DNA of 64,000 nt, taken from contig CACWOH010000005.1 of the NCBI GenBank assembly GCA_902762435.1, positions 51,873 to 115,872 on the forward strand, given 5' to 3'. The stretch is from an uncultured Bacteroidia bacterium. Its GTDB lineage: Bacteria > Bacteroidota > Bacteroidia > Bacteroidales > UBA932. A program made the position numbers and the translations under genes. Shown in pieces: positions 1 through 15,961 of the stretch (position 1 is its first letter; every line of letters begins with the position of its first letter). Below the pieces are notes generated by a model that saw only the letters and a list, made by a program, of their open reading frames with translations, searched no databases and was not told where the DNA came from.

Positions 1-2
1 GC

Positions 3-413
3 GCGTGGTGCTTCCTGCTGGATGCCGACATGCCCGACGAGGAATATGAAGCGCTCCCGGCGCGGGGCCGGTATGCGACGTCGTCCCGGATCCGGCGCCA
101 GCTGGAGCAGGGACTCCGGCTGGGAGAGGGTTTGTGCGGCTATTACCTGGGGCTGAATTACATCTACGGCTTGCTGGGATTCGGGATTGACCTGTCGGAG
201 GCGGAACGCGTGCTGCGTAAGGGCGCGGCGCTTGGAAACGGGGACAGCTGCCTCCTGCTGGCTCGATTGCAGGAAAACCGGGAGGACAGTACGCCCGAGA
301 TGAAGGAGGAAGCCGCCAGGATGCGCCAGAAGGCGTACAATTACGGAATAGAAGACGCCCTGGAAGAGCCGGAACAGGACGAAGATGACGGCCGATGGGA
401 CGCTTATGTATAA
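3..413 (+). CDS. Sel1-like repeat protein, 5' end outside window
   Basis: The reading frame is open to the left edge, so the N-terminus is missing; an ATG at 30 is an internal methionine or an alternative start. The visible part has one clear Sel1/TPR-type repeat: a YLGLNYIYG helix, then DLSEAERVLRKGAALGN and a closing CLLLARL helix, the usual pattern of a solvent-exposed helical scaffold for protein contacts. The last 30 residues are acidic. Its stop lies inside the start region of the next gene (8-nt overlap with the ATG at 406), so it is translated as part of the large downstream cluster. It may serve as an adaptor in that cluster, which is inference from position. Confidence 0.72.
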   Translation, partial: AWCFLLDADMPDEEYEALPARGRYATSSRIRRQLEQGLRLGEGLCGYYLGLNYIYGLLGFGIDLSEAERVLRKGAALGNGDSCLLLARLQENREDSTPEMKEEAARMRQKAYNYGIEDALEEPEQDEDDGRWDAYV

Positions 414-1005
414 ATTCAGACGGAAAATGACGAACTTGGAAACCATTGTCGCGAATGTGGACAGCATGCGCAAAAATGCGCAGGAACAGGATTTCTATAA
501 GAATGTGCCCCTTGCGAACGACACCCTGAAGCTCCTGGAGGAGCTGGACGACCCGGACGAAGGTCCGCTGGGCAAGGCCTATGCCTGCAACGCCATACTC
601 CGCGAGTTGCCGGAGTACGACACGCCCCGCCTGGCCCTGAAACTGCTGCGCCGGGAGCTCTCCTGGCTGCAGGAATCGGACGAAAAGAGCGACTGGCTGC
701 ATGAGGATGAAGTCGAATCGGATATCGCGCGCCTTGAGGCGTATATCGATGTCGACGGGATTTCCATGGAGGAGTTCTGCAAGCAGTATGGCCGCCACCT
801 GCATTTCGACCCGGTGGAGCGGACTGCGAAGTGGGAGGAGATCTATTGCGACGTCGAAATAGCGTGCGCCAAGCGTCTGAAGGGCGTGCCGCGCGGCATG
901 GGCTATTGTTTCGGCTATTGGGCCGCCCGGAGCAACGTCCTGAAAGAATACGGGATCGACTGGAAGTCACCGGGCATCATGAACCCCAGAGTCATGTTTG
1001 ATTAG
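406..1005 (+). CDS. conserved hypothetical protein of the kinase/AAA cluster
   Basis: I do not recognise this family. The protein is about 199 residues, acidic and predicted mostly helical, with no signal peptide or membrane segment. The C-terminal third has a distinctive glycine/aromatic stretch (GVPRGMGYCFGYWAARSNVL) followed by GIDWKSPGIMNPRVMFD, which looks like a conserved core. The ATG at 406 overlaps the previous stop by 8 nt. An ATG at 427 (MTNLETIV) and one at 385 are also in frame, and 427 would give a more ordinary N-terminus, so the exact start is uncertain. Cytosolic partner of the neighbouring genes is the only role context supports. Confidence 0.7.
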   Translation: MYKFRRKMTNLETIVANVDSMRKNAQEQDFYKNVPLANDTLKLLEELDDPDEGPLGKAYACNAILRELPEYDTPRLALKLLRRELSWLQESDEKSDWLHEDEVESDIARLEAYIDVDGISMEEFCKQYGRHLHFDPVERTAKWEEIYCDVEIACAKRLKGVPRGMGYCFGYWAARSNVLKEYGIDWKSPGIMNPRVMFD

Positions 1006-1030
1006 GAGATAACCCATAATTGTATGTCAT

Positions 1031-1840
1031 ATGCAAACAAAGATTGATACTTTAGCTGCGATCTGCAAACTGGCGATAGCCTTTTGCAATACGGATGGAG
1101 AGGGAAGCGACTCGGAGACGAACATTCTCTATGATTTTCTGTCCGGATTTGAGGAAGTTACGCCGGAAATCGCTGACCAGGTTATTCAAATGGCGTTCGA
1201 AATGGAGGCCCGTGAAGCCTTTATCCGGACTTTATGTCTGGCAGAAGAAGACAAGGAGCGGGTAAGTAATTTCTTCGCCGACATCATCTGCGATGACGGG
1301 CAACTCACGCCGGAAGAGGAGGAGTACTATCATAGGGTTTGCGCGACTTGCGGGCTGCCCGATATCCTGGAGGAGCGCATCATTCGTGATGAGAGTCCGG
1401 AGGCTGCTCCGGCCGAAGTGGAAGATACAGAAATCTATCCGAGTTTCGTGGTCATCGACTTCCGGGGTAATGCGACCTATCGTTGGGTTGAACAGGAAGA
1501 TTGGGATACGCTCCGCGGCGAGATGTGTACCTGGATCCAGGCGAACCAGATTGAAGTCGTCCGCTACACCAAGCCGCTCAATGCCCTGTCGAAGAAATTG
1601 GAGCTCGTCGGGAAGCATCTGGTGTTCCTGACTTCCCGCAACGGCTTCACCGTGACGGTGGGCGACAATATGACGGCCACGCTCCTGTACGATGGGGGTT
1701 ATGAGCTCTTCGGCAATATCATCATTGCCCTGGAGACGGACGATGGATATGAGATTGAAGGCTTCAAGATGCAGTCCCACCTGGACAAGGCATTCTTTGC
1801 CGTGGATGAAGCCGTGGGCGGCCTGTTGAGTCTCAAATAA
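1031..1840 (+). CDS. TerB-like domain protein
   Basis: A 269-residue soluble protein. Residues about 5-120 have the TerB/DjlA-type helical pattern: two copies of an acidic loop after a hydrophobic helix (NTDGEGSDSE near residue 22 and DDGQLTPEEEEYY near 88). In TerB this acidic region binds metal or membrane surfaces. Residues 135-269 form a separate beta-rich domain (PSFVVIDFRGNATYRWVEQ onward) that I do not recognise. TerB-fold proteins are known in Ter-type stress clusters that also carry kinases and PP2C phosphatases, and both occur downstream here. The TerB assignment is by pattern rather than by exact motif and is moderate. Only 3 nt separate it from the next gene. Confidence 0.68.
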   Translation: MQTKIDTLAAICKLAIAFCNTDGEGSDSETNILYDFLSGFEEVTPEIADQVIQMAFEMEAREAFIRTLCLAEEDKERVSNFFADIICDDGQLTPEEEEYYHRVCATCGLPDILEERIIRDESPEAAPAEVEDTEIYPSFVVIDFRGNATYRWVEQEDWDTLRGEMCTWIQANQIEVVRYTKPLNALSKKLELVGKHLVFLTSRNGFTVTVGDNMTATLLYDGGYELFGNIIIALETDDGYEIEGFKMQSHLDKAFFAVDEAVGGLLSLK

Positions 1841-1843
1841 AGT

Positions 1844-2680
1844 ATGATGGGCGAAAACGTACGTGTCCGCGAACGTGTCGAGACCCAGACGGCGGTCGAG
1901 ACCGAGACCCGGGAAAAGGAATCCACGGGCAGGTGCCCGCATTGCAGTGCCGATGTGGGGCCGGATTATGAGATCTGCCCTGTGTGCGGGTGGAAGATGG
2001 TGGATTACTGCACCTTCTGCGGAGCGCCGATGCTCCCCGACGATGTGGACTGTCCCGAATGCGGCATGCCGGCAGACGGTGTGCTTTGTCCTACTTGCAA
2101 CATCCTCAATTTCAGGTGTTTCTGTCGACAGTGCGGACAGCCGCTCTCCCGCGCGGCCCGGCATGCTGTGGAGAAGGCCCGGCAGGATCCGAAGGTGAAG
2201 GAGTCGGCGCGGCTGTTGACGCGCATCGCCGAACTGGAAGCGGAACTGGCGGGCGACCTGCCGGGAAATGAGGGAGCGGATGAGCCCGCTGAACCCACGG
2301 AAGGGGAGTTGCGACTGCGTGAATTGATGTCCCACATGGGCTTCTCGTTCACCGAACAGCCTAAAGCGACCCGGCGAAGCATGGGACGCAGCCGGGAGGC
2401 CGTGATGGAAGAGTACCAGCGGGCGGTCGAAGAAGCGAATCAAGTGCTGGAAAGCATGCTTCCTCCTGCCGGCTCCACGCCGCAGGAGCAGCGCAATTAC
2501 TACACGGCCCGCAAGGTGGCCGTGACGGAATTGATGGAGGTGACGGGCCTGGTGGGCTGGATTTGCAACTGGTGCCATTGTTTCCATGAGCATCCCTCTC
2601 AGTGCTACCGGCCGTGGCTGGGCGGTACCTGGCAATACGGCACGACCCAGAAAGTAGTTACCACGTACAAAAAAGTATAA
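1844..2680 (+). CDS. multi-zinc-ribbon protein
   Basis: A 278-residue protein whose N-terminal part (about residues 30-100) has six CxxC knuckles in tandem (CPHC, CPVC, CTFC, CPEC, CPTC, CRQC), enough for three double-knuckle zinc ribbons. A charged helical middle follows (ARLLTRIAELEAELAG and flanking residues), then a C-terminal Cys/His patch (CNWCHCFHEH with a later Cys) that may bind another metal. There is no membrane segment. Zinc ribbons of this type usually mediate protein contacts or nucleic-acid binding. The two proteins encoded further along (AAA+ and FHA) also begin with short zinc ribbons, so a shared docking mode is plausible. Two ATGs in a row (1844, 1847) make the start uncertain by one codon. 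Confidence 0.8.
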   Translation: MMGENVRVRERVETQTAVETETREKESTGRCPHCSADVGPDYEICPVCGWKMVDYCTFCGAPMLPDDVDCPECGMPADGVLCPTCNILNFRCFCRQCGQPLSRAARHAVEKARQDPKVKESARLLTRIAELEAELAGDLPGNEGADEPAEPTEGELRLRELMSHMGFSFTEQPKATRRSMGRSREAVMEEYQRAVEEANQVLESMLPPAGSTPQEQRNYYTARKVAVTELMEVTGLVGWICNWCHCFHEHPSQCYRPWLGGTWQYGTTQKVVTTYKKV

Positions 2681-2683
2681 AAC

Positions 2684-5600
2684 ATGGCTGAACAGGACAA
2701 CAACTTGACGCCTCAGAAAACGGCTGTAGCCCCTCAGAAAACAGCGACCGCTCCTCAAAAGACCGCTGTCTTTTCCCAAAAAACAGCGGTGTTTCCCCAA
2801 AAGACTGCGGCCGCTCCGCAGAAAACGGCTGCGGCACCGCAGTCGACTGCTGCAGCGCCGCATGTGCCCGGCATGGCCGCTACCTCCGGTGGCGGCACCT
2901 ATGCTTCGGGAGAAACTGTAAAAGTCGGCGGCAACAGCTATACCGTAGAGAAACTGATGGGCAGCGGGTCGGAAGGCGACATTTATATCGTTTCCGCTCA
3001 CAAGCGGAAATATGCGCTCAAGTTGTGTCACCCCGGGTTCCATACCAATGTCAAGGTCATGCCCGCCATGCAGAAGTTGAACGGGCAGGGCTACATCTCC
3101 GATATCGTGGATTACGGCGATGATTTTGAACTTCTGGAATACATCCCTGGCGGCAATGCCGCGTCAGCGGGGTTGAAGGGAAATGCCGAAGCCATCCTGA
3201 TCATTGCGGCCAAGACCGCCATGTCCTTGTCCATGATCCATCAGGCCGGCGTCCTCCATAAGGATGTGAAACCGGCCAATATCCTTATCAAGGACAGCCA
3301 GATTTGGGACTGCGTCCTGTGTGATTTCGGCATCGCCGATAAGATCGATGTGGACGGCAGTTGTGTGACCAAGCAGTTCCGAACCCCTATTTATGCGGCC
3401 CCGGAAGTCTATACGACGACCGTCACGCTCCCGGATGGCAACTATACGGAGTTGACCTCCAAGGCGGATTTCTTCTCGCTGGGCATGACCATCCTGTCCT
3501 TGTGGATGGGTGAGGAAGTGTTCGAGGCAAACGAGCCGGCCATGGCGATTGACAAGGTGAAAGGGCGGATTGCCGTCCCGGCGGACATGCCGGATCCGCT
3601 TGCCAGGATCTGCCGGGGCCTGCTCATCAAGAACCCCGCCAAGCGCTGGGACTACGATGAGATCCTGCGAACCGTTAAGGGCGAGGACGTCCCGGTGGAA
3701 GAAGATGAGATCATCGAGGACCTCGGCATTACCTTCAATGCCTCCCAGCATCTGATGGCCAATACGCCGGAGGAACTGGCTCAATGTATGGTCGAGGATC
3801 AGGACCTGGCCGTCAAGTACCTCTATCGCGGTCAGGTCGAGAAGTGGCTCAAACCCTATCCGGAACTGGCCCTCGAGATCCAGGATATTGTGGAAACACG
3901 TTATCCTCAGGATCAGCAGATGGGCCTGTATGCAGCCGTCTATCTGTTGGATCCGACCTGGCCGCTCCAGCTGGTCGGCATCAATCGCGAAACAGGGGAG
4001 GGGGAGGAGCTTTCTGCCGTTACGATTAAGGATATCAGCAATTTCTGTCATCGTGCCATTCCGGATTCAGTTACGGCCAGTATGTTGTCTTCCGATGTTT
4101 TCGTGGAGTGGGTTCGTGCCCGCAACAAGACGCTGGCTGCGTCTTTGCCGGCCGAGAACGGGCAGACATCCTGCTATATGCTGCGTGTGCAGACGATTGA
4201 TCCGCTCTCGGATATCAATCTGCGCAACGACTCCGACGACCCCGACTACGCGATGACCCAGGAAGGGATCGGGCGTTTCCTGAACAAGGTGTACACCATT
4301 TTCTGGTCCCACTGCGAAGGCGATCCATCCAAGATCGACGAGGTGTGGAATCGCCCGGAACACGCTCCGATGAACCGTATGATTCCCACAGCGGTCGTAG
4401 CGAACACCGCTGCCTGCTTCTTTATGCCGGATGAGTACCACTACCTGACGGATTTTATGGCCACCAAGGGCCAGCGCTTCCAGCAGCAACGCTCCTGGGT
4501 CATGTACTGCACCGATTGGAACAGCGACGATAATCGCCGGAAAGCCGGGCCGAAAGACGCGGACTTCCAAGCGCAGGCCAGCTGGATGAAGGTGATCAAG
4601 GGTTTCGGCGTCACGCCGGAATACGAATTGGTGGATGTCGCCGAGAAGGTAACGACGCGGGATGAGCTCTTTTCCCACAAAAAGAAGGAGCTGGCCCATG
4701 AATTCTACCATCGGGGCCTGGCCGGCTGGCTCGCCGTGCAGCATCAGGAGAATCCCGATGCGGACCTTTCGGAAGAGTACGCCTACGAAGATCTGCTCCT
4801 GGATTATTTGGATGACATTGAGGAAATCGACGACAAGGCAATGCCCGTGGAGCGCTTCTACAAGGCACAGGGCGAAGCGGACGATATTCTTTCCTCTGGC
4901 AAGGCCCGCATTCGCGGCCTCAGCGTCCGAAGTATGTTGCAGCATGTGTTAACCATCGTCTTTGCGATCCTGCCCGCCATCGTTCTGCTGGGCATGCTGA
5001 TCTTCTCCATTATTGACAACCCGGTCTTGGACACCTCCGGCATGCGGCTGGAACGCTTCTTCTGGCCGGTCGGCCTGATTGTGGCCGCCATCCTGTTCTT
5101 CGCTTTTGACAGCGAAGGATGCCTGATTCCATTAATCGGCGGAGCCATCGGTGCGGTCCTCGTCTTCCTGCTGGTCAAGTTCCTGGGTGCTTATATCCTG
5201 TATCTCTACGCTTTGATCGTGCTGGGCGCCCTGGTCTTCTTCAGCATCAAGACCATCTTTTTCCACAGCCAGTTCGCCCGGGACGCCCGGCGCTTCAACA
5301 AGCCGGGATTCGAAGAAAGGGTCCTGGAGCCGCTTTACTACGCCTTCAGTGACGAGACGAGATTCGACTCCTCCCTCAATGGTACGTTCGACGAATTCAA
5401 GATGGGCGCCTGGAAGAGCGATCTGAAGACGCGTCGCATCCACATGCTGATTTTCATCGGCGTCACCTGGGCGCTGGTTGCTTTCAGCCTGCTAATCCCC
5501 AAGAGCGAGCGCTTTGAGCGCTTCTCCGTTCCGTTCATCGAAAAGATCCTGCCGGCCCGGCAGGCGCCTGTCCAGCCGGACTTGCTGGAATTCGAAAGCC

Positions 5601-5839
5601 TGGAGCCCGGCAGCAGGGGAGAAGATGTCCTGGCGCTGCAGCGCTATCTCAAGGAGACCGGCTATCTGCGGGGGGCCGTGGACGGCGATTATGGCCGCGG
5701 AACGCAGGCGGCGGTGTCCGCGTTCCAGAAAGCCAATGGCCTGGAGGCGACGGGGCATGCTGACAAGGAAACGATACAAACCATCAACCGGCTGGCCGCC
5801 GAGGCTGCCCGGGAGGCTGAACAACAAAACAAGGAATAG
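2684..5839 (+). CDS. membrane Ser/Thr protein kinase with peptidoglycan-binding domain
   Basis: A 1051-residue Hanks-type kinase. After a seven-fold PQKTA repeat (residues 10-58), the kinase domain (about 80-335) has a glycine loop GSGSEGD, the ATP-anchoring lysine K113 (YALKL), the catalytic loop HKDVKPAN (D194) and DFG at D214. A long middle domain (340-750) is unknown. Five hydrophobic segments follow (about 755-777, 787-806, 812-834, 836-856, 923-942). The last 80 residues are a PG_binding_1 domain (GSRGEDVLALQRYLKETGYL). An odd number of spans puts kinase and wall-binding domain on opposite faces, so the kinase may report on peptidoglycan; that topology is inferred. AAA+, FHA and PP2C genes follow directly, with a 2-nt gap to the first. 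Confidence 0.9.
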   Translation: MAEQDNNLTPQKTAVAPQKTATAPQKTAVFSQKTAVFPQKTAAAPQKTAAAPQSTAAAPHVPGMAATSGGGTYASGETVKVGGNSYTVEKLMGSGSEGDIYIVSAHKRKYALKLCHPGFHTNVKVMPAMQKLNGQGYISDIVDYGDDFELLEYIPGGNAASAGLKGNAEAILIIAAKTAMSLSMIHQAGVLHKDVKPANILIKDSQIWDCVLCDFGIADKIDVDGSCVTKQFRTPIYAAPEVYTTTVTLPDGNYTELTSKADFFSLGMTILSLWMGEEVFEANEPAMAIDKVKGRIAVPADMPDPLARICRGLLIKNPAKRWDYDEILRTVKGEDVPVEEDEIIEDLGITFNASQHLMANTPEELAQCMVEDQDLAVKYLYRGQVEKWLKPYPELALEIQDIVETRYPQDQQMGLYAAVYLLDPTWPLQLVGINRETGEGEELSAVTIKDISNFCHRAIPDSVTASMLSSDVFVEWVRARNKTLAASLPAENGQTSCYMLRVQTIDPLSDINLRNDSDDPDYAMTQEGIGRFLNKVYTIFWSHCEGDPSKIDEVWNRPEHAPMNRMIPTAVVANTAACFFMPDEYHYLTDFMATKGQRFQQQRSWVMYCTDWNSDDNRRKAGPKDADFQAQASWMKVIKGFGVTPEYELVDVAEKVTTRDELFSHKKKELAHEFYHRGLAGWLAVQHQENPDADLSEEYAYEDLLLDYLDDIEEIDDKAMPVERFYKAQGEADDILSSGKARIRGLSVRSMLQHVLTIVFAILPAIVLLGMLIFSIIDNPVLDTSGMRLERFFWPVGLIVAAILFFAFDSEGCLIPLIGGAIGAVLVFLLVKFLGAYILYLYALIVLGALVFFSIKTIFFHSQFARDARRFNKPGFEERVLEPLYYAFSDETRFDSSLNGTFDEFKMGAWKSDLKTRRIHMLIFIGVTWALVAFSLLIPKSERFERFSVPFIEKILPARQAPVQPDLLEFESLEPGSRGEDVLALQRYLKETGYLRGAVDGDYGRGTQAAVSAFQKANGLEATGHADKETIQTINRLAAEAAREAEQQNKE
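2711..2857 (+). repeat. heptad repeat PQKTAxx coding for seven evenly spaced threonines
   Basis: Seven consecutive 21-bp units encode PQKTAVA-like heptads. Threonines fall at residues 13, 20, 27, 34, 41, 48 and 55 of the kinase. Codon use varies among copies, so the repeat is not a recent slippage product. The segment is proline-rich, lies on the kinase side of the membrane and precedes the catalytic domain. It is a candidate phospho-acceptor tail for the FHA protein encoded downstream. Confidence 0.85.
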
Positions 5840-5841
5840 TC

Positions 5842-8800
5842 ATGGTCTGTAAACAATGCGGGAAAGATAACCGTCCGGAAGCGAAATACTGTCGCTTCTG
5901 CGGCGAGCGGTTGGAGGTAAAAGCGTCCTCCCAGAAGGGCCTGATCGGCAAGGACAACATCGTCCCTTTGCTGGAGGAACTCGACCGGAAACTCATCGTG
6001 GCCCAGCGCTTTGCCAGCAATGGCACGAAGATCGGCATGGACTGCCTCGTCCTGGGAGACAGTGGAACCGGCAAGACTTTCGTCGCGGACATCATCACCC
6101 GCAAGATGATGGATGCCGGAATCGTGAAGGTGCCGCCGAAGAAGGTTGACGCCGCTGACTGGGGCGATTTCTGCAAGGAGTTTGACAAGAATGTCGCGGC
6201 GCTCAAGGATGGTATCCTGCTGATTACCAACGCACAGAAGCTCCTGCCTACGGACAAGGCTTCGAATGTAAATCAGTTGGACAAGCTCTTCACGCGCATG
6301 CGTGGAACGGAAGGCGCTCCAATAGTGGTCCTGTGCGGCCTGCTGAACGAGATGAGCAGATTCCTGGAGAATAACAAGGATGTTGCTCGCCTTTTCGAGC
6401 TGGAGTTCAACCTGACGGCCTTCTGCACGCCGGAGCTGACGGAGCTCACTTTGTCTATCCTTAAGGAAACATATAAATTGGACGCCTCGGAGGGGCTTCC
6501 TGACATCCTTGCGAGCCATTTCCAGTGGTTTATGCGTCAGCCGGATCTGAGTCATCTCAACGGCCACCTGGCCGAGAAGGTCGCGGAGAACCTCTCCGTC
6601 AAGGCGGCCCTGCGCGGCAGGAATACCGTGACGGAAGAAGATGTCCCTGCCGGTGAGCGTTTTACGCCCAAGTCAGAAGAGGAAATCCTGGCTGAACTGA
6701 ACAACTACATCGGTCTGCAAAGCGTCAAGGATAAGATTCTCGAAATTGTCCGGAATGTGAAGACCCGCAAGAAAAATGGTGTGAAGGCCAATAGCCTGCT
6801 CACGGACCACTATCTCTTCACCGGCAATCCGGGGACCGGCAAGACCACTTTCGCCCGCAAGTTCGGCGAAGTGCTCGGCACGATCGGCGCCCTGCCCACG
6901 GGACAGTTCGTGGAAGTGTCCGCCAAGGATTTCATCGGGCAGGTGGTCGGGGACACGGAGGCGAACGTGAAGCGTTATGTCAACAAGGCCATCGGCGGCG
7001 TGCTTTTCATCGATGAGGCCTATGCACTCACCCAGGGTACCTCGGCCGGCGACGGCGGCAGTTTCGGCATGGACGCCATCAATACGCTGCTTACCCTGCT
7101 GGAAAACCGGCGTGGCGAATTCGTTTGCATCATGGCGGGTTATACCAAGGAGATGAACGAGTTCGTGCGCAAGAATCCCGGCATCCCGTCCCGCTGCAAC
7201 GTGACCATCGAATTCCCGGACTACAACGCTCGCGAGCTGGAGCAGGTCTTCCGTATGCAGCTCCTCCGAAACGATGAGAAAGTGGAATATACCTTGGACG
7301 CTACGGCGGAAGAGATGCTCCCCAAGGTCTTCGACCGCATGTATGCCAGACGCATTGACACCTTCGGTAACGCCCGCGCGGTGCGAAACCTGTTCTCTGA
7401 GGCCGTAGGACGCCACAATGCCCGCGGCTGCGGAGACAATATTCTCAGCTATTCCGATATCGTGGGCGAGGAAATGACCGGCGAGATCTCCGTTGAGGAC
7501 ATCATGAAGGAGCTGGACGGCCTGGTGGGTATGAAGTCCGTCAAGGACGCGATCCGCCGCATCGCCAACGAAATGGCCGTCCAGAAACGACTCATTGAGC
7601 TGGGCGAAAGCGCAGAGGGCCTCACCAAGTTCAATTTCGTGCTGACCGGCAATCCCGGCACCGGCAAGACCACGGTGGCTCGCCTGCTGGGCAAGATCTT
7701 TAAGGCGATGGGGATTCTCTCTACCGACCGGGTCACTGAAAAGACCCCCAAGTCCATCCTCTCCCAGTACCAGAACCAGAGTGCGCAGAACATGAACGAC
7801 GCCATCACGGAAGCCATGGGCGGCGTGCTCTTCCTGGATGAAGCCTACGACATCGATCCGAAGGATGCTGCCGGCCAGAGTGTCAGCAGGGAGGGCAATG
7901 AAGCCATCCAGGCCTTGCTGACCCGCATGGAGAACGAGGCTGGCAAGTTTGTTGTGGTTTGCGCCGGTTACCCCAAGGAGATGGAAGACTTCATGAATTC
8001 CAACCCCGGCCTGCGAAGCCGTTTCTCGCATTTCATCCACATTGACGACTACTCGGCCGACGAACTGCTGGAAATCTTCGAGCGCGCCGCCAAGGGCAAG
8101 AGTTACAACTTTACGCTTGCCAACGATGAAGTGCGCGCACGCGTGCTCCGCATGTTCCAGAACATGGTGGCCATGAAGGACGCGAAATTCGGCAATGCCC
8201 GGGAGGCCATGAAAAAGCTGGCGGAGACCAAAACGAATATCTACAACCGTATCAAGGCGCTCCCGCAGGACCAGTGGACGCCGGAGAACATCCATTCGGT
8301 GTTCCTGGAGGATGTCCCTTACGAGGAGCCCAAGAAGATCTCCGTGGACGAGTGCCTGGAGGAACTCAACAAACTTATCGGCCTGGAGGGCGTGAAGTCC
8401 TCGCTCACCAAGCTGGCGCACACCATCAACAACGAGATCGAGAGCGCCCGGCTGGAGAACCGCCGTCCGGAGATCCCGCTGGGACATTATCTGTTCCTAG
8501 GCAATCCCGGCACCGGCAAAACCACGGTGGCGCGTCTGATGGGCAAGATCCTGTATTCCATGGGCGCCCTGCCGAGCCCTTATGTCAAGGAAGTGGGGAA
8601 GGCCGACCTGGTCGGCCGTTTCGTCGGCGACACGGAGGCAATCACTTCGCATGTGATCGACTCGGCCATGGGCGGCATTCTGTTCATCGACGAGGCCTAC
8701 CAACTGATGACCGACCAGTTCGGGCAGGCGGCGCTGGAGACGCTCCTGACCCGCTTGGAGAACGACCGGGGCAAGTTCGTCTGCATCGCCGCGGGCTATT

Positions 8801-9144
8801 CTCACGAGATGCAGGCCTTCATCAACGGCAACAGCGGTATTCCGTCGCGCTTCCCTCAGCGGAACTGGATCACCTTCGAAGATTACGATCCGGAAGAGCT
8901 CTTCCAGATTTTCATGATCTATGCCTGCAAGGGCGGATACACCCTCGATCCGATGGCGGAAACCGCCGTGCAGGCCAAATTCACGATGATGTACAAGGAC
9001 CGCGGACGGACTTTCGGCAACGGACGCGAAGCCCGCAACCTCTTCGACGAGGTCAAGAGCAATCTGGCGGCCCGTTTGGCCGACGATGGGCAGACGCATA
9101 CCCCGGAAGAACGTAAAACCATAATGATGGAGGACGTGATATGA
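5842..9144 (+). CDS. four-module AAA+ ATPase of the CbxX/CfqX type with N-terminal zinc ribbon
   Basis: An 1100-residue protein. Residues 1-25 are a zinc ribbon (C3, C6, C17, C20). Four AAA+ modules follow. Module 1 has a P-loop near residue 73 (GDSGTGKT) but a poor Walker B (ILLITNAQK), so it may be inactive. Modules 2, 3 and 4 have P-loops at about 328, 603 and 887 (GNPGTGKTT) and good Walker B motifs (GGVLFIDEAY, GGVLFLDEAY, GGILFIDEAY). This is the CbxX/CfqX family, which includes the rubisco activase CbbX and the ATPase module of type VII secretion EccA. Such proteins remodel or thread other proteins. Four modules in one chain could form most of a ring. Its final ATGA overlaps the FHA gene. 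Confidence 0.9.
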   Translation: MVCKQCGKDNRPEAKYCRFCGERLEVKASSQKGLIGKDNIVPLLEELDRKLIVAQRFASNGTKIGMDCLVLGDSGTGKTFVADIITRKMMDAGIVKVPPKKVDAADWGDFCKEFDKNVAALKDGILLITNAQKLLPTDKASNVNQLDKLFTRMRGTEGAPIVVLCGLLNEMSRFLENNKDVARLFELEFNLTAFCTPELTELTLSILKETYKLDASEGLPDILASHFQWFMRQPDLSHLNGHLAEKVAENLSVKAALRGRNTVTEEDVPAGERFTPKSEEEILAELNNYIGLQSVKDKILEIVRNVKTRKKNGVKANSLLTDHYLFTGNPGTGKTTFARKFGEVLGTIGALPTGQFVEVSAKDFIGQVVGDTEANVKRYVNKAIGGVLFIDEAYALTQGTSAGDGGSFGMDAINTLLTLLENRRGEFVCIMAGYTKEMNEFVRKNPGIPSRCNVTIEFPDYNARELEQVFRMQLLRNDEKVEYTLDATAEEMLPKVFDRMYARRIDTFGNARAVRNLFSEAVGRHNARGCGDNILSYSDIVGEEMTGEISVEDIMKELDGLVGMKSVKDAIRRIANEMAVQKRLIELGESAEGLTKFNFVLTGNPGTGKTTVARLLGKIFKAMGILSTDRVTEKTPKSILSQYQNQSAQNMNDAITEAMGGVLFLDEAYDIDPKDAAGQSVSREGNEAIQALLTRMENEAGKFVVVCAGYPKEMEDFMNSNPGLRSRFSHFIHIDDYSADELLEIFERAAKGKSYNFTLANDEVRARVLRMFQNMVAMKDAKFGNAREAMKKLAETKTNIYNRIKALPQDQWTPENIHSVFLEDVPYEEPKKISVDECLEELNKLIGLEGVKSSLTKLAHTINNEIESARLENRRPEIPLGHYLFLGNPGTGKTTVARLMGKILYSMGALPSPYVKEVGKADLVGRFVGDTEAITSHVIDSAMGGILFIDEAYQLMTDQFGQAALETLLTRLENDRGKFVCIAAGYSHEMQAFINGNSGIPSRFPQRNWITFEDYDPEELFQIFMIYACKGGYTLDPMAETAVQAKFTMMYKDRGRTFGNGREARNLFDEVKSNLAARLADDGQTHTPEERKTIMMEDVI

Positions 9145-9698
9145 TCCAGTGCCCCGAATGCAGAAGCATGATTCCCGACGACAGCGCCTTCTGCGACCAG
9201 TGCGGGAAAGAATTGAAATGGTGCCCGACCTGCAAGCGGCCCAAGCGCGGCACGGAGTGTCCCGTCTGCGGCAGCGACTTGATTCCCGGGCGGAAATACC
9301 TGGCCGGGGGGGCCACCGTGGAGCAGAAGCCTGCTGCGGCGTCGTCCACCATCCAGGAGAAGCCGGCCCCGGAGACGCCCGCCGGCCCCAGGTCCCAGGC
9401 GACGGCGGTCCAGGCATCCGGCGGACCGACCCGTCTGGTCGGGAACGGCTGGTCGCTCCTGCTCCAACCCGGCGGCTTCGGCCGGCGGGGCGGCATCTGG
9501 CCGGAACTGGCCAGCTGCCAGTATGTATCCGGCAGCCACGGAGCAATCAGCCGCGGCTCGGATGGCTGGATCCTTGTCGACATCGGCTCTACCAACGGCA
9601 CTTTCGTGAACGGTCAGCGCCTGGAATCCGGCCGAGGATTTCCTCTGAAGAAAGGAGACCGTGTCCGCATTGCAACCCTTGATTTCACTGTAGAATGA
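9141..9698 (+). CDS. FHA-domain protein with N-terminal zinc ribbon
   Basis: A 185-residue soluble protein. The N-terminus has four CxxC-type knuckles (CPEC, CDQC, CPTC, CPVC), making two zinc ribbons. A Pro/Ala-rich linker runs from about 55 to 95. The C-terminal half is an FHA domain with the hallmark SGSHGAI and DIGSTNGTFVNG motifs, which read phospho-threonine. The domain ends at the stop codon with no other module. Start and stop codons overlap both neighbours by 4 nt (ATGA), implying coupled translation with the AAA+ and phosphatase genes. It probably recruits phosphorylated partners, with the kinase's threonine repeat the obvious candidate. Confidence 0.93.
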   Translation: MIQCPECRSMIPDDSAFCDQCGKELKWCPTCKRPKRGTECPVCGSDLIPGRKYLAGGATVEQKPAAASSTIQEKPAPETPAGPRSQATAVQASGGPTRLVGNGWSLLLQPGGFGRRGGIWPELASCQYVSGSHGAISRGSDGWILVDIGSTNGTFVNGQRLESGRGFPLKKGDRVRIATLDFTVE

Positions 9699-10429
9699 AA
9701 CTCGATATCCAGGCCATCTGCCACAAAGGTCTTGTGCGGGATAACAACGAGGATGCGCTGTCCGTCGGCGGCGTGATCCTGCGCGATGACGCCACCAACC
9801 TGGTGGTCACCATATCTCCCGAAGGCTTCTTCTACCTGCTGGTCGCCGATGGCATGGGCGGCCATGAGCACGGGGAAGTGGCCAGCCGCTTCGCCCTGGA
9901 GGAGATGGAAGAGCAACTGTCGCTGCACCAGATCCAGCCGGACAGTTTCGAAGACGATGCACGCGAAGCGGCGCACTACATCGCCGTGAAGCTCAACCGT
10001 ACCGCCGCCGATCAGGGCCAGGCGCTTCCGATGGGCTGCACGCTCACGGGCGTGGTCTGGCACTACGGCCGAACCTGGCTGCTGAACGCGGGCGACAGCC
10101 GGACCTACCGCTTCCGGGGCGGCATGCTCCGCCAGCTGACGACCGACGAAACGGAGCGCGGCTACACCGGTGATCCGACGGCGAGCAAACTGCTGCTGAA
10201 TTGCTTGGGCGGTGGCACTGAAGGCCACCTGGCCGTAAACTCCCTGGACGGGAAACTGCTCGAAGGAGACGTGCTGCTGGTCTGCTCCGACGGACTCTGC
10301 GACATGGTTCCGGACGAGACGATCGAAACGGCGCTTGCGGACGGGGCCGGTGCGGAGGATCTTCTCCGGATGGCCTGCGATGCGGGCGGTGTCGACAACA
10401 TCTCCATTATCTTGGCCAAGATTCTGTAA
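9695..10429 (+). CDS. PP2C-family Ser/Thr phosphatase
   Basis: A 244-residue cytosolic PPM/PP2C phosphatase of the short bacterial PrpC/Stp type. Metal-ligand motifs are all present: VRDNNEDAL near residue 15, VADGMGGHEHGE near 50, LLVCSDGLCDMV near 198 and GVDNISIIL at the C-terminus. It would remove phosphate from Ser/Thr residues placed by the kinase encoded 4 kb upstream. The kinase, FHA reader and PP2C eraser together form a closed reversible circuit, as in type VI secretion threonine-phosphorylation control and in Ter-linked kinase-phosphatase modules. The start overlaps the FHA stop by 4 nt. Confidence 0.94.
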   Translation: MKLDIQAICHKGLVRDNNEDALSVGGVILRDDATNLVVTISPEGFFYLLVADGMGGHEHGEVASRFALEEMEEQLSLHQIQPDSFEDDAREAAHYIAVKLNRTAADQGQALPMGCTLTGVVWHYGRTWLLNAGDSRTYRFRGGMLRQLTTDETERGYTGDPTASKLLLNCLGGGTEGHLAVNSLDGKLLEGDVLLVCSDGLCDMVPDETIETALADGAGAEDLLRMACDAGGVDNISIILAKIL

Positions 10430-10432
10430 ACG

Positions 10433-13400
10433 ATGAGTACATCAAGTCCCTCTGGCTGGCGCCGATACAACATTTTCATTTCGTCCACGTTCAAGGACAT
10501 GGACTTCGAGCGGGACATCATCAAGTTCCGCATCATCCCGGCCCTGAACCGTCGTTTCCGCGACCGGCGGGTCGAGCTCCAGGCCATCGATCTCCGCTTG
10601 GGCGTGAACACCTCGGACATGTCCGAGGCGGAGAGCGAGCGCAAGGTGCTTTCCGTGTGCACCTCCTGTATCGACAGCGCGCGCCCTTTCTTCATCGGAC
10701 TGATCGGAAAACGCTACGGCTGGATCCCGCCCATGGAGCGCTGGCAGGAGTTTACCGCCAAACTCTCGGACGAGGAGCAGGCGCTGCTGGCCGGTACGGC
10801 TGGGTGCAGCGTGACGGAGATGGAAATCGTCTACGGCGCCCTCTCGCAAGAGAGTTTCGATACATCCCACGTCCTGTTCTACCTGCGTGATGACAGTTCC
10901 TACGAGGGACTGCCGGAAGATTTGCTGCCGGCCTTCTGCGACAGCGATCCGGAACTCCTCCGGAAACTGGATGCGCTCAAGGACAAGGTCCGCCGGCTCT
11001 TCGGTGCGTTGGGTGGAGAGGACGACCGCTGCACGCCGTATCGACTGGCCTGGCGCGACGGCCACTTCGAGGGGGAAGACTTCGAACGGATCGTGACGGA
11101 GCAGCTGGCCCGGCAGATTGAGCAGGAGACTGCCCGGGAAGAGGAAGCCGGCGCTGCAAGCTGGTGGGCCCAGGAGAAGGAACTCGAAGAATCCACGCTG
11201 CAGCGCCTGCTGCCCGGCTCGGTGGAAACCTATCTGGCCCCGGACCCGGACGAGAAAAAACGTAAACAAGAGGAGGATCCGTCCGACCGGGTGGTCTGGT
11301 ATGTGCCGGGCATGGGCGCCAGCACATACATGGCACAGGAATATGCCAGCTGGGACGAAGATGCGGATGTGGTGCGGCTGCTGGCCGTGTTCGGCCTGTC
11401 GGAATACAGCAATGCCATGCGTCCGGTACTGGCTCGCTGGATCCATGAGCTCGCGCTGGTCACGGGCCGGGAGGAGATCCCGGACGACGACCAGTTGCTG
11501 GGCAAATTGCCTGAGACGGAGTTGAATGCCCTGTTCGCTTCGCTCGTACAGGAAGTTCGCGACGCAGACAAATATATCTACATTTTCCTCGACGACGTCG
11601 AGGCCCTCGAGACAACGGCAGCCAAGGACCTGTACATGCCCTGGCTGGACCGGGTGGCGGATCAGGTGAACATCCTGGTGAACCTGCAGGATGAGAGCGA
11701 GGCCCGCACGAAATTCCTCTCGGCGCACGCATACCCGGCCCGGTTGATGGTGCCCGGCATCGTGGATTCGGAGGATGCGGAAGCGCTGATTTCCCGCTAT
11801 GAGAAGACGTATTTCCTGGAATTGCCCGCGGCTGTCCGGAAGGCCATGCTGGATATGGCGGACGATGACAAAGATTGCTTGTTGCCGATCAAGGTACACA
11901 ACGTCTTCCGTCTTTTCGAATCCCTCACCCAGGAGGATTTCAAGCGGATCCGCGCCAGCGAGGGCAGCCAGATTGACGCCATCAACGGCTATCTCGAAGA
12001 GATCTGGGGTGAGATGCCGGATACCCCTTACGACCTGATGACCCATATGGTCAACAATATTCTCTACAACCTCGGGCTGGGGGAGCAGATGCGCCAGGCT
12101 TTCTGGTACATTGCTGCAGCCCCGGGAGGTCTCCGGGAGAGCGATATCGCCCATTTTGCCGGGGAGGACTGGGATGTGGTCCAGTTCTACCGGGCGATGA
12201 ATTTCCTGCAGGATTTCTTCTACGAGGACCGGACCCGCCATCTATGGCGCGCAAAATTCATCACGCAGGCTGAAGACGGCCTGCAGAAGCGCCAGAAGGA
12301 GATTTCGTCCTATCTGCTGACGCTGGATTCCGCAGACTCCCTGCGGGAGACGATGGGACTGTATTACGCGCTCAAGAGCGGCGACCCCTCGCATTATGCT
12401 CCCTACCTGATGGAAGGCGACTACGCCCACGGACCGAAGATGAAGGAGCTGGTCCGTATCCACGGCCCGCAGATCCGCCAGCTGTACCGGGAAGGCTGGC
12501 TCGGCAGCCGTGAATTTGAGAAGTACTGCAAGGCCCTGGATGCTCCGCAGCGCCTGCAGTTGATGATGGTCGCCCTCACTGCGCTTGCCGACCTGCAGGA
12601 GGAAAGGATGGCGTTGGGCGACCGGATGGCGACGTGGCTGGACGACATCGACGTGGCCGGGCTGTCGGCGCCGGACGCCTTTTCCTATGCCGGCCTTGTC
12701 GGCCACAGGCCGAAATCCATTCCGTATCTGGAGCGGGGGCTCCAGGCGGCCCGGCTTTGTGTCGGATTGGATTATCCGGATTCGCAGCACTTGTTCTCCG
12801 GTATCGCCGGCCTGCTGGTTATGGCTTACCGTAAAATGGGCCTGAAAGCCAAGGCCGCCGCGCTTGCGGAGGAAGTGGCCGGGCTGACTGCCCTGAGCGC
12901 GAAGGACCGCTTTACTGCCCTGCAGCCCCTGCTGATGAAGGCGTACGGGCGTGGACTGTTTGTCTCAAGGAAACAAACCGCAGCTGCGCTTGACCAGTTC
13001 CTGACGGAGTACTACGCCATCGTGGATTCGCTGGAGCTCAACGATGAGAATTTCACCGCCCGTTTCTGGTCCGGGGGCCAGATGAATCTCGCCTTCCAGG
13101 TGATTCTCGGAATGAAGGATTATGACCGGCTCCTGGAGGAGCTTGTCCGCTTCCTGCCTTCTATGCAGCTTTTTTGCTGTGCGCCCAACTTCTTCAGCAA
13201 CTCGAAGGCACTGGAGATGTATGTGCAATACCATTCTTTTTTCGTGGGTGTAGAAATGTCCCTGGAGGATCGGGACGACGAGGCCGTCCGACGTATCGGT
13301 ATGCTCGGCCAACTCGCTATGTTTGAAGCCGGGGAGCGCCTCAAGGAAATAGACCCGGACAACGTGTTTATCAAGACCTGCCGCTCTTCCTTCGCTTCCT

Positions 13401-13516
13401 CACGGGACGTCATCTCCGCGCTCCGGGAACAATTGGGCGTGGAGGACGTGGAACTCAAGGACTTGGACGAATTAATCAAAGAACAATACGAATCCTATGT
13501 TTCGACGCATAATTGA
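10433..13516 (+). CDS. DUF4062 domain protein with degenerate STAND-like NTPase
   Basis: A 1027-residue protein. Residues 8-115 are a DUF4062 domain (YNIFISSTFKDMDFERD, then GLIGKRYGW), the N-terminal domain also seen in NPHP3-type proteins. From about residue 285 there is an NTPase-like region. The P-loop position reads PGMGASTY, lacking the GK[ST] signature, while a Walker B-like IFLDDVEAL remains near 383. From about 560 to the end the sequence is helical and looks TPR-like. Large DUF4062-NTPase-repeat proteins are candidate sensors or scaffolds; loss of the lysine argues against ordinary ATP hydrolysis. The 3' end overlaps the next gene by 20 nt. The STAND assignment is inferred. Confidence 0.82.
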   Translation: MSTSSPSGWRRYNIFISSTFKDMDFERDIIKFRIIPALNRRFRDRRVELQAIDLRLGVNTSDMSEAESERKVLSVCTSCIDSARPFFIGLIGKRYGWIPPMERWQEFTAKLSDEEQALLAGTAGCSVTEMEIVYGALSQESFDTSHVLFYLRDDSSYEGLPEDLLPAFCDSDPELLRKLDALKDKVRRLFGALGGEDDRCTPYRLAWRDGHFEGEDFERIVTEQLARQIEQETAREEEAGAASWWAQEKELEESTLQRLLPGSVETYLAPDPDEKKRKQEEDPSDRVVWYVPGMGASTYMAQEYASWDEDADVVRLLAVFGLSEYSNAMRPVLARWIHELALVTGREEIPDDDQLLGKLPETELNALFASLVQEVRDADKYIYIFLDDVEALETTAAKDLYMPWLDRVADQVNILVNLQDESEARTKFLSAHAYPARLMVPGIVDSEDAEALISRYEKTYFLELPAAVRKAMLDMADDDKDCLLPIKVHNVFRLFESLTQEDFKRIRASEGSQIDAINGYLEEIWGEMPDTPYDLMTHMVNNILYNLGLGEQMRQAFWYIAAAPGGLRESDIAHFAGEDWDVVQFYRAMNFLQDFFYEDRTRHLWRAKFITQAEDGLQKRQKEISSYLLTLDSADSLRETMGLYYALKSGDPSHYAPYLMEGDYAHGPKMKELVRIHGPQIRQLYREGWLGSREFEKYCKALDAPQRLQLMMVALTALADLQEERMALGDRMATWLDDIDVAGLSAPDAFSYAGLVGHRPKSIPYLERGLQAARLCVGLDYPDSQHLFSGIAGLLVMAYRKMGLKAKAAALAEEVAGLTALSAKDRFTALQPLLMKAYGRGLFVSRKQTAAALDQFLTEYYAIVDSLELNDENFTARFWSGGQMNLAFQVILGMKDYDRLLEELVRFLPSMQLFCCAPNFFSNSKALEMYVQYHSFFVGVEMSLEDRDDEAVRRIGMLGQLAMFEAGERLKEIDPDNVFIKTCRSSFASSRDVISALREQLGVEDVELKDLDELIKEQYESYVSTHN

Positions 13517-15335
13517 CCGCCTGCTCTCCGTCGGGGAGGGAAAGCAGCTGGCCTGGCTGGTGGGCATCGTGCTGGTGCTGTATGGCATCTTCTGTCTCGT
13601 TGGCCGGATCTGGGGGCTGGACTGGACCGATATCCTTACCCTTTATCTTGATCCGGGCAATTTCCCGATCGACCACCAGGCGAACGACATCTTCAGCTTG
13701 ATCGTCACGCTGAGCGGCATCCTGATCCTGAGCGCCCTGATGATTTCGGTGTTCTCTAATGTGTTTTCGAACATAGCCGAGGCTTACCGCAAGGGCGAAC
13801 GGCGCTACCGCTTCCGGGACCATGTGCTGATCTTGGGTGGCGGCCATCCGCTTGCCGACATGCTGAGGGCCTTGCAGAAGCATCCCGATTTCGCCGGCAA
13901 GGACATTCTGGTCATGACTTCTTCTGACGTGGAGGCCCTCCGGGCCACGATGGAGACGGCCCTTGACGATGCCGCCTTCTGCCGCCGGATCACCTGGTAC
14001 CGGGGCAAGCGGGACAACCGGGAAGACCTCCTCGGCGCCCGGGCGTCCCTGGCACGCTGCATTTATCTGATCGGGGAGGACGATGAAGCGGCGCATGACT
14101 CGCTGAATGTCGGGGCCATGGACCTTCTCCGGGACATCTGCGGCGGGGAGGGCTCGGCCATCCCGTGCTACATCACCCTGGAGATGCGCTCCAGCCAGGA
14201 TGTGTTCCAGTATCTTCCGAAGGAGGGAGAATCCCGCCTGCGCGTCGAGATCGTCAATACCAGTGATTACTTGGCGGAGCAGCTCCTCGTGGATACGCCT
14301 TTCCTGCCGGTTCCCGGCGCAGGGCAGCACCTGCACATCGTGATTGCGGGCAGCGGCCGGACGGCCCGGTCGTTTGCCGCCGTGGCGGCGCAGGTCTGCC
14401 ATTTCCCGGATTTCGCGCAGAGCGGGTGCAGGACGCTGATCTCATTTATTGACAGTGACATCCGAAAGGAGATGGATGATTTCGTGGCGAACCGCCAGGG
14501 CCTGTTTGACCTCTCGCACTATGCCTATGTGTCCCCGGCGGGGCGCGAAGACCATGCGCCGAAGGAGGCCTTCGGCGATTTCCTGGACCTCGAATGGGAG
14601 TTCATTGACAGCCATCTCTCCTCGCCTTTTGTCCGGGAACAACTGGAGACCTGGGCCGCTGACCCGGCGCAGAAGCTCGTGGTGGCAATCTGCCCCGAGG
14701 ACGCTGCGACGGCGCTATCCGCCGCCTTGCACCTGCCGAAGGCGGTTCTCAAGGCGGATATCCCCGTTGCGGTCTATCAGAAAGGCCATGCGGAATTGCT
14801 GGACAAGGCCGTCTCCACGGGCATGTTCGGGCAGATCCGCTGCTATGGCGAGGCGATGCCCGAGACCGATGCGCTGCTCCTGCGCCGCTCCGAGCGCGGC
14901 CAGCGGGTCAACTACCTCTATGATTTGGAATATGGCAACCCGCCCGCCGCCTCGGCTGCCGAGGCCTGGGCGGGCCTTTCCTTCGCCCACCAGCTTTCCA
15001 GCATCGCGAGCGCCAATTCCATCCCCATAAAGCTTCGTGCCTTTGGTCTGGAGGCGACGCGCAGCGCGGTCGATGCTCTGGATGCCGACACGCTGGAGGC
15101 GCTGTCGGAAGTGGAGCATCGCCGCTGGATGGTGTCCGTGCTGCTGATGGGCTACCGTGCGGCACCCAAACGCGAGCGGTCGGACCGAAGCCGATTCAAG
15201 GAGTTGAAAAACAAGGAGTTCATCCATCTGGACATCGCGCCCTATGATGAACTCGCCCACGAAGCCGACAAGGATCGGCTGATCGTTCAGAATATTCCGT
15301 ATATCATGAATGGAGAGGAGATTGTTCGCCTATGA
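13497..15335 (+). CDS. membrane RCK/TrkA-N-like protein with C-terminal RyR domain
   Basis: A 612-residue protein with two N-terminal hydrophobic spans (about 18-40 and 63-85) and two Rossmann folds of the TrkA-N/RCK type. The first begins HVLILGGGHPLAD near 108, the second HIVIAGSGRTARSF near 280. The last 75 residues match the RyR domain seen in bacterial proteins (EHRRWMVSVLLMGYRAA, then APYDELAHEADKDRL and a NIPYI end). The layout recalls CASTOR/POLLUX-like ion channels, but no TVGYG-type selectivity filter is visible between the spans, so it may be a nucleotide-sensing membrane protein rather than a potassium channel. Translationally coupled to both neighbours (20-nt and 4-nt overlaps). 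Confidence 0.85.
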   Translation: MFRRIIDRLLSVGEGKQLAWLVGIVLVLYGIFCLVGRIWGLDWTDILTLYLDPGNFPIDHQANDIFSLIVTLSGILILSALMISVFSNVFSNIAEAYRKGERRYRFRDHVLILGGGHPLADMLRALQKHPDFAGKDILVMTSSDVEALRATMETALDDAAFCRRITWYRGKRDNREDLLGARASLARCIYLIGEDDEAAHDSLNVGAMDLLRDICGGEGSAIPCYITLEMRSSQDVFQYLPKEGESRLRVEIVNTSDYLAEQLLVDTPFLPVPGAGQHLHIVIAGSGRTARSFAAVAAQVCHFPDFAQSGCRTLISFIDSDIRKEMDDFVANRQGLFDLSHYAYVSPAGREDHAPKEAFGDFLDLEWEFIDSHLSSPFVREQLETWAADPAQKLVVAICPEDAATALSAALHLPKAVLKADIPVAVYQKGHAELLDKAVSTGMFGQIRCYGEAMPETDALLLRRSERGQRVNYLYDLEYGNPPAASAAEAWAGLSFAHQLSSIASANSIPIKLRAFGLEATRSAVDALDADTLEALSEVEHRRWMVSVLLMGYRAAPKRERSDRSRFKELKNKEFIHLDIAPYDELAHEADKDRLIVQNIPYIMNGEEIVRL

Positions 15336-15961
15336 TCGCTATTAAAACGCAGCCCGCCGAAGGGGATCTCTTCGGCCAGAGCAAGTGGTGGGGCTTCCCG
15401 GACCTTCCGGAGGAGCTGGACTGGCCGTCCGTGCCGGTCAATGACGAGGGGGACGTGTACGACGACACGCTGACCTTCATCTGCCAGATCCGTTGCGAGG
15501 AGCTGGCGCCGTTCGATCCGGAAGGACTGCTGCCGCATACCGGCATGCTGTGGTTCTTCGCCTCGCTGGATTATTTCCTCGGCAACCTGGACGCCGTCTG
15601 CCCGGGGATGGGGGAGTGGGAGTACCCGTATTTCCGGGTGCTCTATTCGAACGACCTGGATTCGCTGCATGAGCACACGCTGCTCTACGATGACGGCACG
15701 CCTGCCGTCCTGCCGGCCGAAGCCATCCGTTTCTCGCGCGTGTCGCGCGACGAGGACAGCTATACGCGTTTGCTGGGGCAACCCTTCTTCGAGGAAGTGT
15801 CCGGCGAACTGCCCGGCCTGATCTCCCTGCTGCAGCTGGACGAAGACGACCGCTGGGGCCTGCGCTTCTTCGACAGCGGCATGCTCAATTTCATGATTTC
15901 ACCCGAAGATCTCGCCGCCCGCCGCTTCGGCGCCGTGCGCGCCTGGCTCCATTCCGCCTGA
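15332..15961 (+). CDS. DUF1963 (YwqG-like) protein
   Basis: A 209-residue soluble protein matching DUF1963: GQSKWWGFPDLPEELDWP near the N-terminus, ICQIRCEEL, a LISLLQLDEDD...WGLRFFDSGMLNFMISPEDLAARRF block near the C-terminus. The biochemical role of the family is unknown; it is common beside contact-dependent and polymorphic toxin genes and in signalling islands. The ATGA overlap with the RCK-RyR gene ties it to the same mRNA. It is the last gene of the cluster; the next reading frame is a remnant 58 nt downstream. Confidence 0.85.
   Translation: MIAIKTQPAEGDLFGQSKWWGFPDLPEELDWPSVPVNDEGDVYDDTLTFICQIRCEELAPFDPEGLLPHTGMLWFFASLDYFLGNLDAVCPGMGEWEYPYFRVLYSNDLDSLHEHTLLYDDGTPAVLPAEAIRFSRVSRDEDSYTRLLGQPFFEEVSGELPGLISLLQLDEDDRWGLRFFDSGMLNFMISPEDLAARRFGAVRAWLHSA

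Follow-up and report, generated by a model that had tools for sequence, protein, structure and literature searches.

What might a run of nearly gapless genes do that joins a protein kinase, a phosphatase and an AAA+ protein to two large proteins, one with a DUF4062 domain and one resembling an ion channel? The question is raised by a 64,000-nucleotide stretch of DNA (G000:C5:51873-115872; hereafter the window), part of a 2.30-Mb, 46-contig assembly, in which ten same-strand genes (424-15961) follow the tail of an eleventh (1-413); we labeled these genes A to K. A sequence-only reading had described ten or eleven consecutive genes as a phospho-threonine circuit joined to a four-module AAA+ machine and to DUF4062 and RCK-RyR proteins. 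We confirmed the observation, with spacings of -20 to +3 nucleotides from C to K, and found the interpretation partly supported: the run is real and compact, but is made of two modules, a five-gene core (D to H) and a sensor-channel pair (I and J). We see about an even chance that I and J form an immune-type sensor and effector, in which a signal that I derives from nicotinamide adenine dinucleotide (NAD), or a fall in NAD+, gates J, with the core probably coupled to them in this clade.

A predicted NADase sensor with an exchanged tail

The pair and its main features, all on the + strand, are as follows.

10433..13516, + strand: gene I; DUF4062 (TIR-like, Pfam E 4.6e-10), STAND-like NOD, winged-helix region, helical tail
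10808..10825, + strand: SVTEME motif of I (residues 126-131), with candidate NADase glutamates 129 and 131
12413..13513, + strand: swappable helical C-terminal tail of I (residues 661-1027)
13497..15335, + strand: gene J; predicted channel with two transmembrane segments, tandem RCK and an RyR-like C-terminal domain
13650..13658, + strand: predicted selectivity filter D52-P53-G54 of J, with Asp in most rows and a low-confidence model at this place
15084..15332, + strand: RyR-like domain of J (residues 530-612; H541, W544, H577, D593), by profile match to RyR

In 2026, DUF4062 was reported to act as a NADase, both in Swarozyc of bacteria and in TEP1 of humans. Gene I matches the DUF4062 domain of TEP1 at E 4.6e-33, and its SVTEME aligns with the SVTEME of TEP1; the motif is present in 15 of 15 clade rows and reads SITEIE in L067. 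Judged by sequence, I has the catalytic glutamate expected of DUF4062 NADases, with E131 probably equivalent to TEP1 E1008 (taking 1113 as the construct end), and is by homology to the reported enzymes a predicted NADase.

The structure model of I (predicted local distance difference test (pLDDT) 67.5, predicted template modeling score (pTM) 0.43) comprises a NOD, a winged-helix region and a helical tail; Foldseek matched it to STAND-TPR (E 1e-6), and Avs3, NRC2, Apaf-1 and CED-4 were among the top matches in VIA. The model thereby suggests the NOD, winged-helix and repeat-sensor architecture of STAND/NLR sensors. Pfam confirms the DUF4062 of the earlier DUF4062-NTPase label and sees no NTPase in I; an NTPase-like region is present in the model. 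Because the Walker A lysine is not intact (GxGAST in 15 of 15 clade rows), we call I STAND-like rather than a canonical member, and ordinary ATP-driven activation is doubtful. The loss lends appeal to an unproven idea, namely that the AAA+/phospho core, rather than I's own ATP, acts as the switch of this protein.

The tail of I has a different history from the rest of the protein. The I of the window is 95% identical to that of L013 over residues 1-660 and 38% identical over residues 661-1027, compared to 99.1% for F, 99.6% for H and 94.9% for J. Comparison of the window with L009 gave the opposite pattern (85% for the N part, 94% for the C part), and L013 and L024 share 82% and 91%, respectively. 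Trees of the two parts conflict in approximately unbiased tests of groups picked after the identities were seen: the window with L009 (p 8e-4) and L013 with L014 and L024 (p 3e-5) were rejected on the N part, and the window with L013 on the C part (p 1e-56). We read the identity pattern and tree conflict as probable recombination of the tail of I. Such exchange of the sensing tail is a typical trait of immune receptors.

A predicted channel with an RyR-like domain

The only PDB sequence matches to J were the plant channels DMI1 and CASTOR, which were also its top structure match. Two hydrophobic segments are present in J, and its model runs from a transmembrane helix through a pore helix (43-51), filter and second transmembrane helix (64-98) into tandem RCK domains, which fits a channel topology of the CASTOR/DMI1 type as far as the model goes (pore region pLDDT about 40-60). 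Asp occupies column 52 in 25 of the 29 rows that reach it; the predicted filter is LDPGNF in the window and DPGNQ or DTGNQ in many relatives, compared with ADxGNHA, with an essential Asp, in CASTOR-type channels (AD265SGNHA in CASTOR; PMC6697748).

The earlier label of J as an RCK-RyR protein proved correct, though Pfam finds neither domain: RCK had no significant match and RyR was missed even at E 1, and Pfam RyR is found nowhere in the window's own genome. We assign RCK because of the profile and structure matches to DMI1 and CASTOR, and RyR because of profile comparisons, in which this part of J matched bona fide RyR genes (hhalign 95.8%, E 7e-9) and RyR entries in the PDB (a chimera at E 3e-8 ranked first; 3nrt reached 0.0015). 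The four residues through which an RyR protein of phage binds an ADP-ribose-type signal have counterparts in J: H541 (kept in 34 of 35 rows), W544 (35 of 35), H577 (35 of 35) and D593 (34 of 34). The domain thus appears divergent in sequence while keeping its ligand residues.

Near J-type channels there are also small genes that encode RyR on its own, and these match animal RyR strongly. Beside I, 9 of the 20 loci described below (for example, L018:817-2787) carry a second membrane protein with RyR (656-676 amino acids; N-terminus hydrophobic as judged by eye), and one of the same type is found at L138:5292-7322.

These RyR features bear on an account in which I alone is a Swarozyc-like, NAD+-depleting executioner and J a separate homeostatic or protective channel rather than an effector, sensing NAD+ or ADP through its RCK ring. 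GsuK, a bacterial K+ channel activated by NAD+ and ADP, would be the precedent. Against it, the ligand residues of J are kept in nearly all rows and many loci also carry stand-alone RyR genes or the second RyR membrane protein, so the RyR side looks functional; we consider this account unlikely, though a serious contender.

The pair is associated with a separable core

The five core genes lie directly before I.

1844..2680, + strand: gene D; double zinc ribbon (Pfam DZR), first gene of the conserved core
2684..5839, + strand: gene E; Ser/Thr kinase (Pkinase 1.7e-25) with several hydrophobic segments and C-terminal PG_binding_1 (1.5e-18)
5842..9144, + strand: gene F; four AAA+ modules of CbbX/SpoVK/EccA type (Pfam AAA 9e-55, four stretches)
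9141..9698, + strand: gene G; zinc ribbon and FHA (Pfam FHA 4e-13; DZR)
9695..10429, + strand: gene H; PP2C phosphatase (PP2C_2 2e-12) with PP2C motifs, last core gene

The proposed set of writer, reader, eraser and AAA+ motor was borne out, as was the wall-binding domain on the kinase. Its order, zinc ribbon, kinase, four-AAA protein, FHA and PP2C (D-E-F-G-H), is kept in other family genomes and in one genome of another class, often in the absence of the remaining genes of the run. Kinase E has the motifs HKDVKPAN and DFG, F has four Walker A motifs with a Walker B pattern in three of its four modules, and zinc-ribbon-like CxxC occurs at the start of D, F and G as judged by eye, with a Pfam DZR match in D and in G.

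To place the pair relative to this core, we compared 20 loci encoding relatives of I, from 17 assemblies titled Bacteroidales, two titled Bacteroidia and one titled Clostridia; the titles of eight mention deer, goat, water buffalo or yak. J directly follows I in 15 of the 20, and the contigs of L010, L025, L027 and L028 end before J. Core genes and I share a contig in 15 loci, and the other five contigs (L015, L020, L021, L022 and L027) stop in I, in J or soon past J; the set therefore occurs together more than by chance. Arrangement of core and pair varies, being collinear, split by extra genes or convergent (L017, L018 and L023). The extra genes encode a lipoprotein-like product, a membrane protein resembling DnaJ zinc-finger proteins (sub-threshold in Pfam) and the second RyR membrane protein; the first two stand after the core or before I in several loci (L016:5918-8130 and relatives).

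The two modules also occur apart, so the idea of one indivisible circuit had to be dropped. The core lacks an adjacent I-J pair in eight judgeable loci (L064, L065, L066, L071, L090, L091, L094 and L096; L092 and L093 were left out owing to contig ends); all but L071, which belongs to another class, are within the family. Conversely, E, F, G and H had no match at E 1e-3 among the called genes of 20 further loci with J-type channels (20 of the 23 genomes matched by the J profile below, the others being the window, L070 and one more genome). A wide spread of the core in the phylum was rejected: of the five AAA loci compared from beyond the family (L071-L075), L071 is the single one with the other core genes, and L072-L075 have the AAA protein alone. 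At E 1e-100, kinase E has relatives in 10 of 121 genus genomes, and neither the AAA protein, at that threshold, nor the L070-type J was matched in plasmids. The core is best read as an autonomous kinase, phosphatase, FHA and AAA+ device at the envelope, probably coupled in this clade to the I-J unit; we found no prior description of it in the open-access literature.

The same comparisons weigh on two further explanations. In one, the whole run is a single envelope- or ion-stress response: the peptidoglycan-binding end of E senses the wall, FHA, PP2C and AAA+ proteins relay, J adjusts ion flow and DUF4062 is a regulator rather than an immune NADase, an account close to the first option of the sequence-only reading. 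The near absence of gaps among ten genes, the peptidoglycan-binding domain and the contigs shared by core and I all speak for it; the separate occurrence of core and pair, a patchy occurrence of the kinase that would be unusual in a housekeeping stress response and the exchanged tail of I speak against it, and we hold it to be rather improbable. The DUF4062 and RCK-RyR proteins are best read as a NADase-sensor and a signal-gated channel rather than as sensors of ion or cell-wall stress. In the other explanation, core and pair are unrelated cargo traveling together at a common chromosomal site, consistent with their separate occurrence and with the varying order and strand between them. Their association within the clade nevertheless outlasts rearrangement, and in the window I begins 3 nucleotides past H, making mere cargo very improbable.

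J-type channels near other NADase-type genes

A profile of J matched 23 of 199 family genomes; a profile was needed because a search with the J sequence alone reached no genome but its own among 395 of the phylum. In 8 of the 23, TIR_2 is no more than 10 kb from J, compared to 0.25 expected, although P 5e-11 is not a fair probability because these eight represent about four groups of genera, uncorrected for kinship. DUF4062 lies within 10 kb in 2 of 23 (0.08 expected). Pfam confirmed TIR in L123, L138 and L141 and found it below threshold in L126; neighbors in L129 and L124, TIR-like by eye and unconfirmed by Pfam, were excluded from the counts.

Other combinations recur around these channels. 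In L132, a SIR2-TIR fusion is followed by an nSTAND1-WD40 protein (Pfam). In L070, a J-type channel occurs together with a DUF4062-NTPase-WD40 protein and a stand-alone RyR, without the core, and L069 has an RyR-AAA-RyR protein near a DUF4062-NACHT protein. Members of one gene family (L139:6154-8423, L140:6250-8417 and L141:3604-5798) stand ahead of a half-protein with RCK and RyR, and a TIR gene is found no more than 10 kb away; the L139 member, the only one scanned, has an MscS beta-domain (E 4e-9), so here the channel was apparently exchanged and RyR retained. Genes for CHAT, caspase, AIPR or kinase proteins occur in single J-type loci as well.

Two further observations concern these neighborhoods. 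A three-gene set of J-type channel, SIR2-TIR fusion (scanned in L132) and nSTAND1-WD40 occurs twice within one genus (L132:7697-15001 and L133:2753-10060), and a TIR stretch with three TGA stops (G400:C142:18368-18691) adjoins an intact TIR and a J-type channel. A search of viral contigs for J relatives gave 25 pattern matches, none of them confirmed.

We tentatively propose, at somewhat less than an even chance, a modular bacterial immune pathway from NAD to ion channels, in which interchangeable NADases (DUF4062-STAND, TIR and SIR2-TIR) would make an ADP-ribose-type messenger read by RyR domains on interchangeable channels (CASTOR-like and apparently MscS-like), here also under a phospho-signaling AAA+ core.

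Proposed mechanism and its weak points

From the observed anatomy, motifs, conserved adjacency, tail swap and recurrence of TIR genes near J-type channels, we infer the following steps, with activity, ligand, ion, outcome and core role all conditional. The tail of I would recognize a trigger, for which phage is a likely source because exchanged tails are a habit of immune receptors, and recognition would activate the DUF4062 domain. This domain would, by homology to the reported NADases, consume NAD+ and give ADP-ribose or a cyclic form; the product, or the fall in NAD+, may be sensed by J, at either its RyR domain or its RCK ring. Ion flow through the CASTOR-like pore would then change and growth would stop, with the D-H unit probably coupled to I-J in this clade.

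Several findings weigh against this mechanism. Within the pair, they are the lost Walker A lysine and missing Pfam NTPase of I, the weak model of I and the low-confidence pore region of J. L012 keeps no more of J than its start and the end of RyR (L012:13041-13230) with I and K intact, by either natural loss or an assembly fault. Enzyme and receptor may also mismatch, because TEP1 and KpSwz yield plain ADP-ribose and the ligands tried on phage RyR proteins were cyclic.

Genome context adds further objections. The TIR enrichment is uncorrected for kinship, and 13 of the 23 J genomes have no TIR_2 within 15 kb, 11 of which also have no DUF4062 within 10 kb. Two of five family genomes with DUF4062 (L067 and L068, DUF4062-STAND) lack an RyR neighbor, and two more strong DUF4062 matches (G481:C3 and G463:C29) lie away from J. 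A general RyR-DUF4062 linkage was rejected by Pfam, with RyR (13 genomes) and DUF4062 (41 genomes) never on one contig in 198 phylum genomes, a weak test in that Pfam misses J. Finally, the flanking genes are ordinary (Pfam and by eye), with no phage or defense-island context seen at the locus. The earlier suggestion of a defense module that triggers the membrane protein comes close to the mechanism favored here.

The system is best read as a variant of NAD-based defense signaling, apparently new in its NADase-RyR-channel pairing. If this holds, the enzyme-messenger-RyR-channel logic proposed for cyclic ADP-ribose and animal ryanodine receptors would exist in a compact operon, a bacterial genetic model for gating of an RyR-bearing channel by a NAD-derived messenger; that gating question has been left open for animal ryanodine receptors (PMC13232231). 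It would also add a new effector class, the signal-gated RCK channel, to NAD-based defense, tie TEP1-like proteins to ion channels and offer a possible reason for RyR domains in bacteria. Our analysis also defines the recurrent kinase-AAA-FHA-PP2C core.

Flanking genes

The remaining genes of the run lie on either side of the two modules.

1..413, + strand: gene A; 3' part of a 451-amino-acid protein whose start is 943 bases upstream of the window (L002:15931)
424..1005, + strand: gene B; 193-amino-acid protein, alternative upstream ATG at 385 possible
1031..1840, + strand: gene C; TerB-like, Pfam E 0.0014, below the cut-off
15332..15961, + strand: gene K; DUF1963 protein (Pfam 9e-21)

Gene A has no Pfam match at 1e-5 and has relatives in L012, L086, L088 and L142. 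A gap of 25 nucleotides separates B from C. Identity to L013 is 64% for B and 39% for C, compared to 97.0-99.6% for D-H; the two are thus far more divergent than their neighbors, and their order is also altered there. The proposed TerB-like protein survives as a match to C that stays below the Pfam cut-off; with this match alone, a tellurite (Ter) system was rejected. A divergent M48 peptidase-TerB gene adjoins the cluster (L002:14572-15813) and stands likewise beside the core in the convergent L017, L018 and L023; among 121 genus genomes, 4 have both this gene and the kinase (0.83 expected, P 0.004), and the gene also stands alone. A type VI or other secretion arm was likewise rejected, in agreement with the sequence-only reading, as no secretion genes were found among the nine nearest flanking genes (Pfam) or upstream to 16.9 kb (by eye).

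Comparison with known systems

We found no known defense system with PADLOC, which gave generic kinase and AAA matches, matched C weakly to Csn2 (E 0.004) and had no match to D, G, H, I, J or K. GTPase-centered conflict systems (PMC7159879) resemble the core in linking an active kinase to a zinc ribbon or transmembrane helices and PP2C; they are described there as actinobacterial, with GAP1-N2 GTPases and vWA, whereas the core here has tandem AAA+ modules and FHA instead.

Among the matches listed in searches of the open-access literature, no NADase/RyR-channel pair was seen. A 2015 survey of nucleotide-centered conflict systems reportedly mentions prokaryotic RyR domains. With Swarozyc and TEP1, I shares the TIR-like DUF4062 domain and SVTEME-type motif, followed as in TEP1 by an NTPase-like region. 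It differs from them in its helical-repeat tail, in lacking the Walker A lysine and in its partnership with a channel and kinase core; the portal-binding AUX domain was not recognized in I, no search having been aimed at it.

In Thoeris, a TIR protein makes a cyclic ADP-ribose signal that a separate effector reads, and the logic proposed here is the same, a NAD-consuming enzyme with a separate effector bearing an ADP-ribose-type binding domain. Here, however, the parts would be DUF4062 in place of the ThsB TIR and an RyR-bearing ion channel in place of ThsA; models of ThsA and ThsB were absent among the matches listed for nine window proteins (for kinase E, the best 25 of 33).

J resembles the plant nuclear Ca2+ channels DMI1, CASTOR and POLLUX in its predicted pore with two transmembrane segments, its candidate D-x-G filter and its tandem RCK ring, whereas it is bacterial, ends in an RyR domain and stands beside NADase-type genes. 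GsuK differs in that the filter of J is not the K+-type TVGYG, and we know of no RyR domain in GsuK. Phage RyDEP and Repeat12 of animal RyR share profile homology and the four ligand residues with J, but in J the RyR domain is fused to a channel and is predicted to act as a receptor rather than an evasion protein.

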